Part shown: piece after piece, positions 3 to 3,292 of the stretch
How positions within the stretch are numbered: position 1 is the stretch's first letter
Layout of the letters: every line of letters begins with the position of its first letter
Origin: Clostridiaceae bacterium
Lineage (GTDB): Bacteria; Bacillota; Clostridia; Saccharofermentanales; Saccharofermentanaceae
Length of the DNA stretch: 47,037 nucleotides
Assembly: GCA_012838315.1 (NCBI GenBank)
Contig: DUPM01000090.1
Coordinates: forward strand, 1 to 47,037
Direction of reading: 5' to 3'
Notes under the pieces: model-generated
What the model was told of the DNA's origin: nothing
Databases searched by the model: none
The model's input: only the letters and a program-made list of their open reading frames with translations
Translations under genes and position numbers: made by a program

Positions 3-524
3 TTTGGTGCTCCACCACATGCCGGTATGGCACCCGGAATAGATCGTATGGTTATGCTTCTGACAGATGAAGAAAAAATTCTGGAAGTGATTGCATTCCC
101 GCTGAATGGTAATGCACAGGATCTCTTGCTTGGAGCTCCGAGTGAGGTGACTACTCAGCAGTTAGAAGATGTCCATCTTTTGGGCAGTAGCAATTCACTT
201 GCTTCTCGTGCAGTACCTGTAGCAGGAAGTAAGGGACGCAGTGAAAAGCGTTCTACGTTCTCCAATGCGCAACAGTTGAACCAGTTATCATTAACAGAAA
301 CTGAAGAGAATAATATGCAGAACATTTTCGGGATGATGAAGGTTCATGAAGAAGCGCTGAAAAAGATCGATACGGAAAATGTTGATGAGATGATTCATGT
401 CATGCCGATGACCAACGTCCTTCGTGAAGATGAAAGAAAACAGCCGTTTAAAAGGGAGAGTCTCCTTGAAAGCGCGCCGGAGCGTAGTGAAGACAGTTGG
501 CAAGTGCCAAGACTTGTAAAGTGA
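3..524 (+). CDS. aspS: Aspartyl-tRNA synthetase C-terminus fused to GatC (5' partial)
   Basis: The reading frame enters from the left edge, so only the C-terminal end of the synthetase is seen. The first residues (FGAPPHAG then [26 protein letters not shown]) are class II motif 3 and the C-terminal tail of bacterial AspRS. AspRS normally ends just after the QLEDVHL position, but here the frame continues through a polar linker of about 25 residues into a complete GatC-like domain (about nt 252-521). That domain carries the GatC hallmarks [13 protein letters not shown] and a terminal WQVPRLVK. GatC is the small clamp subunit that holds GatA and GatB together in the amidotransferase making Asn-tRNA(Asn) and/or Gln-tRNA(Gln). 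AspRS-GatC fusions are a known but uncommon architecture. gatA follows 10 nt after the stop and gatB follows gatA, so the whole transamidation pathway lies in one transcript. Confidence 0.93.
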
Positions 525-534
525 GGTGCGTCGA

Positions 535-1716
535 ATGAAAGAATATACAGTACATTTGTCTGAAAAGGGAACCATAGCCGTTGATGATACCATCTTGGTT
601 AAGGGCGTTCAGTCTGCAGCAGGCTCTCGTATTTTAGAAGGTTATATACCGCTGTTTAGTGCTGAAGCAGTTACACGTCTTGAGTGCAAGGGTTATGTTG
701 TTTCAGGAAAGACGCATGTAGGCGAGTTTGGCCTGGATCTTGTCGGTGAATTTTCTTACTATGCAGAAAAAGAAGAGGACCTAAAAGGTGCGGCTGCCAG
801 CCTGGTTGCTATGGGTGAAGTTAAGGCTGCCCTTGGTGTGGATGTTAATGGCGCACCAAGACGTGCAGCGGCGTTGTCCGGTGTCGATTTCCTGAAGCCG
901 ACTTACGGAACTGTCTCACGATACGGCATTATTTCCGGTGCGGCTTCCGGAGAGCAAATGGGCGTATATGCCGGCAATGTCGAAGGTGTCAGTGAGATTA
1001 TGGAAGTCATCAGCGGACATGATGAAAAGGATGGAACCAGCCTTAAGGGAGCAACTTATGACTACAGTACCGACGTTGTTGCCGGTAAAAGAGTATGTAT
1101 CATTAAGGAACTTCTGGATAATGTTGATGATAAGACACGTGAGCGTGTGAATGCATTTGCAGAAACGCTTCGCCGGAGTGGTGTTGTCGTTGAAGAGATT
1201 TCTTGTGATCTATTTGATCTTGCTAACATAACATGGCAAATTCTCATGACAGCGGAGACCTGTAACAACGTATCTCGTTACGATGGCGTGAAGTATGGTT
1301 ATCGTGCGGCAGAATATAAGACCATTGATGAGCTATATACAAATTCTAGAACTGAAGGTTTTAATTTTTTAACAAAGTCGGTCATTCTTTATGGTTCTGA
1401 TGTGTTATCCAAGGACCGTTACGATGACTGCTACGGCAAATCTCTTAAGGTTCGTCGTGTGGTCGCAGAGAAGTTCGAGGAACTGATGAAGCGTTACGAT
1501 GCAGTTCTTACACCGGTTTGCAGTCAGACAGAATATAAAGCTTATGATATAAGCGAAGCCTTTGAAATAGTTTTCAAAGAAAGCGTATTTACTTCCATCG
1601 CGAACCTGATTGGAATCCCGGCGCTGGTAAGCGGCAAAATTCAGCTGATGGGTAAGCATTTTAGCGAAAGTGTTCTGCTTGATCTCGCAAGATGTACGGA
1701 AAGAGTAGGTGAATAA
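535..1716 (+). CDS. gatA: Divergent GatA-like amidotransferase subunit lacking both catalytic serines
   Basis: ATG at 535 is preferred over the in-frame GTG at 526 because GAGG lies 8 nt upstream of the ATG. The protein has 393 residues; family members have about 485. Clear GatA motifs remain (FLKPTYGTVSRYGI, SGHDEKDGTS, YDGVKYGYRA, TRTEGF-like segment, VLTPV), and the catalytic lysine of the amidase signature is kept (K23, codon at 601). The glycine/serine-rich loop that supplies the cis-serine reads DLKGAAAS, with L83 (codon 781) at the serine position. The nucleophile motif DTGGS reads DVNGA, with A107 (codon 853) replacing serine. About 55 residues are missing before the lysine, about 15 between the lysine and the serine loop, and more near the C-terminus. 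Glutaminase activity by the normal mechanism therefore looks impossible. The frame is open and sits 2 nt from gatB, which argues for a retained structural role rather than a fresh pseudogene. Confidence 0.85.
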   Translation: MKEYTVHLSEKGTIAVDDTILVKGVQSAAGSRILEGYIPLFSAEAVTRLECKGYVVSGKTHVGEFGLDLVGEFSYYAEKEEDLKGAAASLVAMGEVKAALGVDVNGAPRRAAALSGVDFLKPTYGTVSRYGIISGAASGEQMGVYAGNVEGVSEIMEVISGHDEKDGTSLKGATYDYSTDVVAGKRVCIIKELLDNVDDKTRERVNAFAETLRRSGVVVEEISCDLFDLANITWQILMTAETCNNVSRYDGVKYGYRAAEYKTIDELYTNSRTEGFNFLTKSVILYGSDVLSKDRYDDCYGKSLKVRRVVAEKFEELMKRYDAVLTPVCSQTEYKAYDISEAFEIVFKESVFTSIANLIGIPALVSGKIQLMGKHFSESVLLDLARCTERVGE

Positions 1717-1718
1717 CG

Positions 1719-3143
1719 ATGAATTATGAAATGGTTATTGGCCTTGAGACCCACGTAGAACTTAGCACCGAATCGAAAATATTCTGCTCATGTGGAGGAC
1801 ATTCCGCAGCCAAGGAACCCAATGATTGTGTATGCCCGGCTTGTAGCGGTATGCCCGGAATGTTGCCTGTGATGAATAAGAAGGTCGTAGAACTTGCCGT
1901 TACAGCAGGGCTTATGCTCAACTGCGAAATTAGTAGATATACTACATTTGATAAGAAGAATTATTATTATCCGGACCTTCCTTGTGCCTATCAGATTACA
2001 CAGTTCAACCACCCGATCTGTACGAATGGATGTGTCACTCTTAAGACGTCCAACGGAGAAAGAGATATTCATATTAATCGGATTCATATGGAAGAGGATG
2101 CGGGTAAACTGGTCCATGCAGGCAAGGCCTCGTACATTGATAATAACCGCACCAGCGTACCTTTGATTGAGGTTGTTACAGAGCCGGATTTTCGAAATGT
2201 AGAAGAAGTAATAACTTACCTCAACAAATTAAAAACCATGCTCCGTTCCGCAGGTATCTCAGAATGTGAAGAAGGCGCAATGCGTTGTGACGTCAACATT
2301 TCCGTTCGTCCGGAAGGTAGCACGGAGTTTGGTATTCGTTCAGAGATTAAGAATATGGCTTCTTTCGAGGCGATCGAAAAAGCAATCCGTTATGAGGTTC
2401 AGCGTCATATGGATGCCATTGAATTTGAGACAGAAGAATTAGTTCAGGAAACAAGGCGTTATGACGACCTCAGCGGTAAGACATTTGCTATGCGCAACAA
2501 AGAAACCGCGGCAGACTATCGTTACTTCCCGGATCCCAATCTAATGCCGATCATCATTGATGATGAATGGTTGAAAGCGATAAAAGCCCAAATGCCTGTG
2601 GCGATTGACGAAAAATCAGACGCTTACAGAGAAGCAGGAATATCGGATAAAGAAATTGACGTGCTCATTCATAACCATATTGCCAGTACATTGTTGGATG
2701 ATGTTGTGGCGCTTGGTTGTGATGCAAAAAATGCATCCGGATGGATATTGACGGATTGTGCCGGTATTCTTCGCAAAAACGGTAAATTGTTGAATGATCT
2801 GGAAGTGAATGCGGAGGATCTTGCAGCAATAATCAATATGGTTGTCAGAGGAACGATCAATAGAATGAGCGGCAAGAAAATATTATCGGCGGTCATCGAA
2901 AAGGGTGTAGATCCTGTAGCGTACTGCAAGGAAAATGCGCTTGATGCCAAGGTAGATACGGCAACCATAGAAAAAATAATGGATACGGTTCTATTGGAAA
3001 ATTCAAAAGCACTCGAAGACTATAAAAACGGCAAAGTTCAGGCTAAGCAAGCAATATTCGGAGCCTGTGTCAGAGCATTAAAGAATACTGCCGATATAGA
3101 TATCATTCGAGAACTTTTGGATAAGAAGTTAAACAACTTATAG
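1719..3143 (+). CDS. gatB: Asp-tRNA(Asn)/Glu-tRNA(Gln) amidotransferase subunit B
   Basis: GatB binds the mischarged tRNA, activates the aspartyl or glutamyl carboxylate with ATP and transfers ammonia to it. The protein has 474 residues, the normal family length. It starts with the diagnostic MVIGLETHVEL segment, has the cysteine cluster CSCG...CVCPAC expected for the zinc site, the RCDVNISVRP and EIKNMASFEAIEKAI motifs, and the YRYFPDPNL motif near residue 270. A YqeY-like helical tail runs from about residue 325 to the end. The start codon lies 2 nt after the gatA stop. In contrast to the gatA upstream, nothing in this subunit looks degraded, so the complex is probably still used for tRNA amidation. 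It may act on Asp-tRNA(Asn) only or on both substrates; the sequence does not decide this. Confidence 0.97.
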   Translation: MNYEMVIGLETHVELSTESKIFCSCGGHSAAKEPNDCVCPACSGMPGMLPVMNKKVVELAVTAGLMLNCEISRYTTFDKKNYYYPDLPCAYQITQFNHPICTNGCVTLKTSNGERDIHINRIHMEEDAGKLVHAGKASYIDNNRTSVPLIEVVTEPDFRNVEEVITYLNKLKTMLRSAGISECEEGAMRCDVNISVRPEGSTEFGIRSEIKNMASFEAIEKAIRYEVQRHMDAIEFETEELVQETRRYDDLSGKTFAMRNKETAADYRYFPDPNLMPIIIDDEWLKAIKAQMPVAIDEKSDAYREAGISDKEIDVLIHNHIASTLLDDVVALGCDAKNASGWILTDCAGILRKNGKLLNDLEVNAEDLAAIINMVVRGTINRMSGKKILSAVIEKGVDPVAYCKENALDAKVDTATIEKIMDTVLLENSKALEDYKNGKVQAKQAIFGACVRALKNTADIDIIRELLDKKLNNL

Positions 3144-3171
3144 GACACGTTGAGCATTTCCTCCATTTCAT

Positions 3172-3214
3172 AAAAAAACAAAAAGTCCCGAAGCCATATA
3201 GCCTCGGGACTTTT
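3172..3214 (-). terminator. Rho-independent terminator of the tRNA-Trp gene
   Basis: Read on the minus strand, GTCCCGAGGC pairs with GCTTCGGGAC (one G-U pair) around a short AT-rich loop, and is followed by a long T-rich tract (complement of 3172-3184). It lies immediately after the tRNA 3' end. On the plus strand it could also stop read-through from gatB. Confidence 0.85.
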
Positions 3215-3217
3215 GTT

Positions 3218-3292
3218 TGGCAGGGGAGACGCGATTCGAACACGCAACCAGCGGTTTTGGAGACCGCTGCTCTACCATTGAGCCACTCCCCT
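3218..3292 (-). tRNA. tRNA-Trp (anticodon CCA)
   Basis: On the minus strand the gene starts AGGGGAGTGGCTC and ends CTCCCCT-G-CCA. The seven-base acceptor stem AGGGGAG/CTCCCCT is perfect, the anticodon loop reads CTCCAAA with anticodon CCA, and the T loop is TTCGAAT. The terminal CCA is encoded. The gene sits between gatB and proC on the opposite strand, with its own promoter and terminator. Confidence 0.96.

Follow-up and report, generated by a model that had tools for sequence, protein, structure and literature searches.

Background

The known heterotrimeric Asp-tRNA(Asn)/Glu-tRNA(Gln) amidotransferases, GatCAB, are treated as glutamine-dependent enzymes. In the Asn transamidosome, as represented by the T. 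thermophilus (3kfu) and P. aeruginosa (4wj3) complexes, GatCAB is brought together with tRNA(Asn) and a non-discriminating AspRS (ND-AspRS). Fusions of AspRS to GatC are already known as well (NCBIfam NF009460, PRK12820, bifunctional AspRS/GatC), as are non-discriminating AspRS and transamidosomes in general. An asparaginase-type subunit can also serve a tRNA amidotransferase, as in the archaeal GatDE, where the partner of a GatB-like subunit is an asparaginase-type glutaminase from outside the amidase-signature enzymes. Amidation without a working glutaminase, which is the logic proposed in the current report, is represented by two ammonia-dependent enzymes, an NAD synthetase (PMC3376133) and the asparagine synthetase AsnA.

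The DNA examined here, which we call the window, is the 47,037-nt contig DUPM01000090.1 of assembly GCA_012838315.1 (Clostridiaceae bacterium), and the genome to which it belongs is labelled G000. At its left end lies the 3' end of a three-gene unit that has the subunit set of GatCAB, a GatA fold, the kinase/transamidase residues of GatB and a GatC domain, but which differs from GatCAB in that its GatA lacks the catalytic Lys, the cis-Ser loop, the glutamine-binding Arg and Asp, some 55 N-terminal residues and, in most orthologues, the Ser nucleophile, and in that its GatC is fused to AspRS. We refer to this subunit and its orthologues as the short GatA and to the GatB encoded beside it as the partner GatB. 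The unit resembles the Asn transamidosome in coupling a putative non-discriminating AspRS with an amidotransferase, although its coupling is covalent, through GatC, and its glutaminase is predicted to be dead. The fusion is of the same domain type as NF009460, but the part of it that lies in the window, which was scanned as a fragment, reaches only 51.9 bits against a model cut-off of 1379. NAD synthetase and AsnA differ from the unit in having no glutaminase domain, whereas the unit retains a conserved, dead one and would act on aminoacyl-tRNA. GatDE, the model for one of the alternatives weighed below, is specific for Glu-tRNA(Gln), and GatD is absent from the unit. Our search of the literature outside subscription journals found no earlier description of a natural glutaminase-dead GatA, of a conserved tRNA amidotransferase with such a subunit, or of an Asn T-box before an operon of this kind.

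We consider it probable that the unit is a transferred, ammonia-fed amidotransferase that forms Asn-tRNA(Asn) and uses the short GatA as a scaffold rather than as a glutaminase. If so, a conserved glutaminase-less branch of the family would set the scaffold function of GatA apart from its catalysis and show that Asn can be made on tRNA directly from ammonia; it would also offer a natural test of the ammonia route to GatB, and an aminoacyl-tRNA module equipped with a tRNA-Asn sensor of its own would be moving among gut lineages.

Organization of the unit

The window begins within the fused AspRS-GatC gene, the 3' end of which (positions 3-524, plus strand) supplies the last 173 codons of a bacterial-type AspRS joined to GatC; the 5' part is found on contig C148 of G000. 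The end of C148 (L169) is identical to the first 127 bases of the window, an exact overlap that splits the fused gene and whose length is probably the assembler's k-mer; the joined frame has 717 codons. The GatC domain (about 255-518) matches TIGR00135 with 57.0 bits, above the cut-off of 47.1. The ribosome-binding site of gatA, GAGGTG (523-528, plus strand), shares bases with the fused gene's stop codon, and a similar site precedes the gatA start in most relatives. The gatA frame (535-1716, plus strand) is open over all of its 393 codons, as had been reported in an initial, sequence-only reading of this DNA. The same reading placed gatA within an aspS-gatC/gatB transcript; gatB does lie directly downstream (1719-3143, plus strand), but aspS and gatC are a single fused ORF. 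A terminator-like hairpin (3171-3216, plus strand) lies 3' of gatB, and the unit is adjoined by a tRNA-Trp gene on the minus strand (3218-3292), which is also present in the same-genus genome G001, beside unrelated DNA. The site next to this tRNA gene may be a variable spot. A ZMP/ZTP riboswitch (Rfam RF01750) occurs downstream of the unit, at L038 10590-10708.

Loss of the glutaminase site

The short GatA of the window matches TIGR00132 with 259.8 bits, below the curated cut-off of 481.1. Its predicted structure (pLDDT 75.5, pTM 0.83) has the amidase-signature, GatA-like fold: the nine best Foldseek matches are all GatA chains, with TMq values of up to 0.85, and the top match is S. aureus GatA (2df4_A, TMq 0.84). 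The pLDDT falls below 50 for residues 244-291, and the model was read for its fold match. Pfam coverage begins at model position 52, which agrees with the earlier estimate of about 55 missing N-terminal residues.

For the assignment of active-site residues, the short GatA was aligned with the GatA of Aquifex and Thermotoga and with 16 canonical GatA from related genomes, and the S. aureus protein was compared through the canonical GatA of G000. The catalytic Lys of the IAVKDNI motif in solved GatA aligns with Asp17 (GAT, 583-585, plus strand), and K23, which the sequence-only reading took to be the retained lysine, stands six residues past this column. The cis-Ser is missing, as that reading held, but not through a one-for-one change to L83; the segment (R)VPGGSS of canonical GatA, about 7 residues, has been deleted (site at 781-789, plus strand), and L83 borders the resulting gap. 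Ala107 (GCA, 853-855, plus strand) stands at the nucleophile position, exactly as proposed. The residues that hold the carboxyl and amide of glutamine in yeast GatA are R334 and D418 (PMC4027206); their S. aureus counterparts, assigned by alignment, are R358 and D425, and these correspond to Val283 and Ser350 in the short GatA, as Tyr309 does to Trp234.

The short GatA thus has neither the Ser-cisSer-Lys triad nor the glutamine-binding Arg and Asp of TIGR00132-type proteins, and the original proposal that it cannot hydrolyze glutamine in the usual way is supported; the calls on the Lys and the cis-Ser were wrong, and the corrected residues point to a loss of glutaminase even more pronounced than had been supposed. 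These residues predict that glutamine is not an amide donor for the amidotransferase. Canonical GatA has 149 invariant columns, of which the short GatA retains 65; another 41 are fixed to other residues, 33 vary and 10 are deleted. The suggested search for a second gatA in the same genome turned up one canonical gene with a complete triad, on contig C60 of G000; a canonical GatA is likewise encoded by 17 of the 19 relatives searched.

Conservation and descent

Orthologues of the short GatA were found in 19 other genomes, at 71-80% identity except for one at 45%. Fifteen in the higher range were identified in species-level genomes whose titles read Lachnospiraceae, Oscillospiraceae, Clostridia or Bacillota, and several of these genomes are, going by their titles, from goat, deer, reindeer and buffalo guts. 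Four further orthologues, those of G452 and G366 among them, came from a search of 397 genomes of one family, of which five were positive; the sample of genomes outside this family is small. Most of the genomes are metagenome assemblies, and absences are accordingly soft except in G452, which is a single 3.66 Mb contig. In G366, the source of the 45% identical orthologue, gatC is a separate gene of 93 codons.

Asp17 and the deletion of the cis-Ser loop are shared by all 18 of the orthologues aligned. The nucleophile column has Ala in 13 of them and Ser in five, so that the prospect of relatives that carry the serines, which had been named as a possible refutation, is realized for the nucleophile only: none of the 18 has the cis-Ser loop or the Lys. 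The presence of Ser in five relatives without its partner residues argues that this column is no longer constrained. The collection of orthologues and the test for purifying selection that had been recommended showed open genes throughout and, for pairs with dS below 1.5, dN/dS values of 0.03-0.16 for the short GatA, 0.02-0.08 for the partner GatB and 0.04-0.10 for AspRS-GatC. The short GatA is under purifying selection. The three genes occur together in all 12 genomes compared, with differing flanks.

The partner GatB is intact. In the window it scores 484.8 bits against TIGR00133 (cut-off 314.8) and 547.8 bits against NF004012 (cut-off 338), and 19 partner GatB sequences retain 101 of the 134 canonical-invariant columns, compared with the 65 of 149 for the short GatA. 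The ATP, Mg and Zn site residues are kept (E10, H12, C23, C25, C39, C42, E125, E151, N193 and S195), the four Cys being those of the Zn site. The partner GatB sequences form a single clade with 100% SH-aLRT support, in which G366 branches first; this placement suggests a single loss of the glutaminase, prior to the fusion of AspRS with GatC. The fusion does not by itself entail such a loss, since in G116 (L183, C57) a 698-aa AspRS-GatC fusion lies beside a full-triad GatA, along with a long-branch GatB. The roles of the GatB residues were taken from the yeast GatFAB paper (PMC4027206) and mapped by alignment, partly by spacing. We also considered whether E155Q, found in most of the partner GatB sequences, represents a lost Mg ligand, and rejected this because the yeast residue spacing puts the ligand at E151, which is retained.

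Evidence for horizontal acquisition

The single-copy SMC protein of the window is 87% identical to that of G001 and 33-39% identical to the full-length SMC of genomes that carry the short GatA. The separate AspRS of the window's genome behaves similarly (91% to G001, 53-60% to the short-GatA genomes), while the fused AspRS is 78-87% identical to its counterparts in the short-GatA genomes. G001 has no short GatA, and the unit is missing at the matching site: its DNA matches the window from position 3180 onward with 78% identity and is unrelated before that position. The three genes of the unit are the only neighbours common to all 12 genomes compared. From these sequence comparisons we infer that the unit was horizontally acquired beside the tRNA-Trp gene. 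At the place where the window has the unit, the G001 DNA (L171 1-1367) contains a lipoprotein-like frame beside tRNA-Trp.

T-box leaders and the link to tRNA(Asn)

A T-box core precedes the unit in 15 of 18 readable leaders, and the specifier is AAC, an asparagine codon, in each of the 14 that have an intact Stem I. Stem I is lacking in L046, and L047 and L192 are without the T-box core. In a consensus fold of 12 leaders, 21 of the 48 pairs have both partners changed, which none of 500 shuffles matched; the fold leaves the invariant AAC without a pairing partner, on the 3' side of the internal loop that follows the basal helix, which is the place of a specifier. The core is visible upstream of the fused gene in the G452 leader, which scored 43.2 bits (E 2.2e-8) when Rfam was searched with a relaxed threshold; at the gathering threshold Rfam missed the T-boxes of the unit (43-45 bits against 93) because their Stem I is divergent. 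Three more T-boxes, all of a more canonical kind, served as calibration. Two of them precede the separate RDHGG-type AspRS genes of G366 (L209) and G521 (L210), and the third (L214) precedes a G452 gene that neighbours the canonical gatA there and that from its position and length is an archaeal-type AspRS2. All three have AAC aligned with the specifier, and two score under Rfam's cut-off. A survey published in 2008 found no T-box upstream of amidotransferase genes in species without Gln- or Asn-tRNA ligase (PMC2494555).

The window's own leader, upstream of the fused gene on C148, has no T-box core; what remains there is a promoter-like site together with a terminator-like hairpin. The branch of the window's GatB also has about double the length of its closest relatives' branches, and with the loss of the T-box this indicates that the window's copy of the unit may be less constrained.

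All 16 readable fused genes encode the motif RDHGG in the anticodon-binding domain of the AspRS; the separate AspRS encoded by those genomes have Leu or Lys at the His position. From mutational studies, a His in this loop is taken as the mark of a non-discriminating AspRS, and on this signature and the T-boxes the fused enzyme is a putative charger of tRNA(Asn) with Asp. No AsnRS is present among the PF00152 matches in G000 or in the single-contig G452, which comprise only AspRS, fused AspRS, LysRS and an AspRS2-type gene (NF003483 in G000). A role of the three-gene module in putting Asn on tRNA(Asn) is well supported by the RDHGG signature in the fused AspRS together with the Asn T-boxes in relatives. 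L109 (G115) and L208 (G521) encode further AspRS-like proteins, some 600 aa long, whose anticodon-binding loop (RRVSKNLGF) is unusual.

Proposed mechanism and alternative explanations

We lean somewhat toward a fuller version of our reading, in which the unit is a mobile, covalent transamidosome that in the majority of carriers is under an Asn T-box and that uses free ammonia to make Asn-tRNA(Asn), independently of glutamine and with a conserved, dead GatA in which an invariant Asp has replaced the catalytic Lys. The fused, putatively non-discriminating AspRS would put Asp on tRNA(Asn), and the tethered GatC would keep the short GatA and GatB beside it as a built-in transamidosome; GatB would use ATP to phosphorylate the side chain of Asp, and ammonia would complete the amide. 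The short GatA would be a scaffold, perhaps an ammonia entry route, with no glutaminase role. Its maintenance beside an intact GatB favors the earlier suggestion of a structural subunit, which it presumably is. The nitrogen donor would most likely be free ammonia, which is plentiful in animal hindguts, and one might speculate that the invariant Asp17 favors ammonium binding. That the complex assembles, that the fused AspRS charges tRNA(Asn), that ammonia is the donor and that Asp17 may have a role are points that we infer. Ammonium is known to substitute for glutamine in this class of enzymes: NH4Cl served as a donor in assays of yeast GatFAB, where truncating GatF in a way that impaired the glutaminase raised NH4Cl-dependent transamidation (PMC4027206).

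A point against the ammonia reading is that G000 and most relatives also have a canonical GatA, which could be a source of ammonia or assume the function itself. It is nonetheless unlikely, in our estimation, that the complex is fed in trans by another amidohydrolase, be it the canonical GatA or an asparaginase- or GatD-like protein. The unit has an asparaginase-family gene as a neighbour in G126 (L176) and in G452 (L189), on the downstream side in one genome and on the upstream side in the other, which leaves room for an enzymatic source of ammonia in the manner of GatDE, but such adjacency is seen in only two of 12 genomes, and the asparaginase-like proteins score 88-96 bits against TIGR00519, for which the cut-off is 260. 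The canonical GatA, for its part, pairs with its own GatB elsewhere in the genome. Quite improbable is a new active site in the short GatA, built for example on the invariant Cys243 or on Asp17/Asp18 and drawing ammonia from another donor such as asparagine. Many columns are indeed fixed to new residues only in the short GatA, with D17, D68, W234, C243 and N244 among them, but Cys299 is lost in the most distant orthologue, and no amidase-signature enzyme is known to work without the Ser-cisSer-Lys set.

We attach a similarly low likelihood to the possibility that the unit is decaying and that its GatA is the remnant of a redundant second GatCAB. G000 does have an AspRS2-GatCAB operon that makes for redundancy, and its leader is the one described above as being without a T-box, but all three genes are open and under purifying selection across many species, and the occurrence of the same loss in an orthologue of 45% identity implies long upkeep after the loss, so that decay is disfavored for the short GatA family. 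That the whole observation is an artefact of sequencing error or of a contaminating contig is very improbable, even though the G000 assembly is fragmented and the same-genus genome is without the unit. Sequencing error is ruled out by the 19 independent orthologues and contamination of the bin by the identity of the window's SMC and of its DNA after 3180 to those of G001; the features of the unit recur in independent assemblies, including the single contig of G452.
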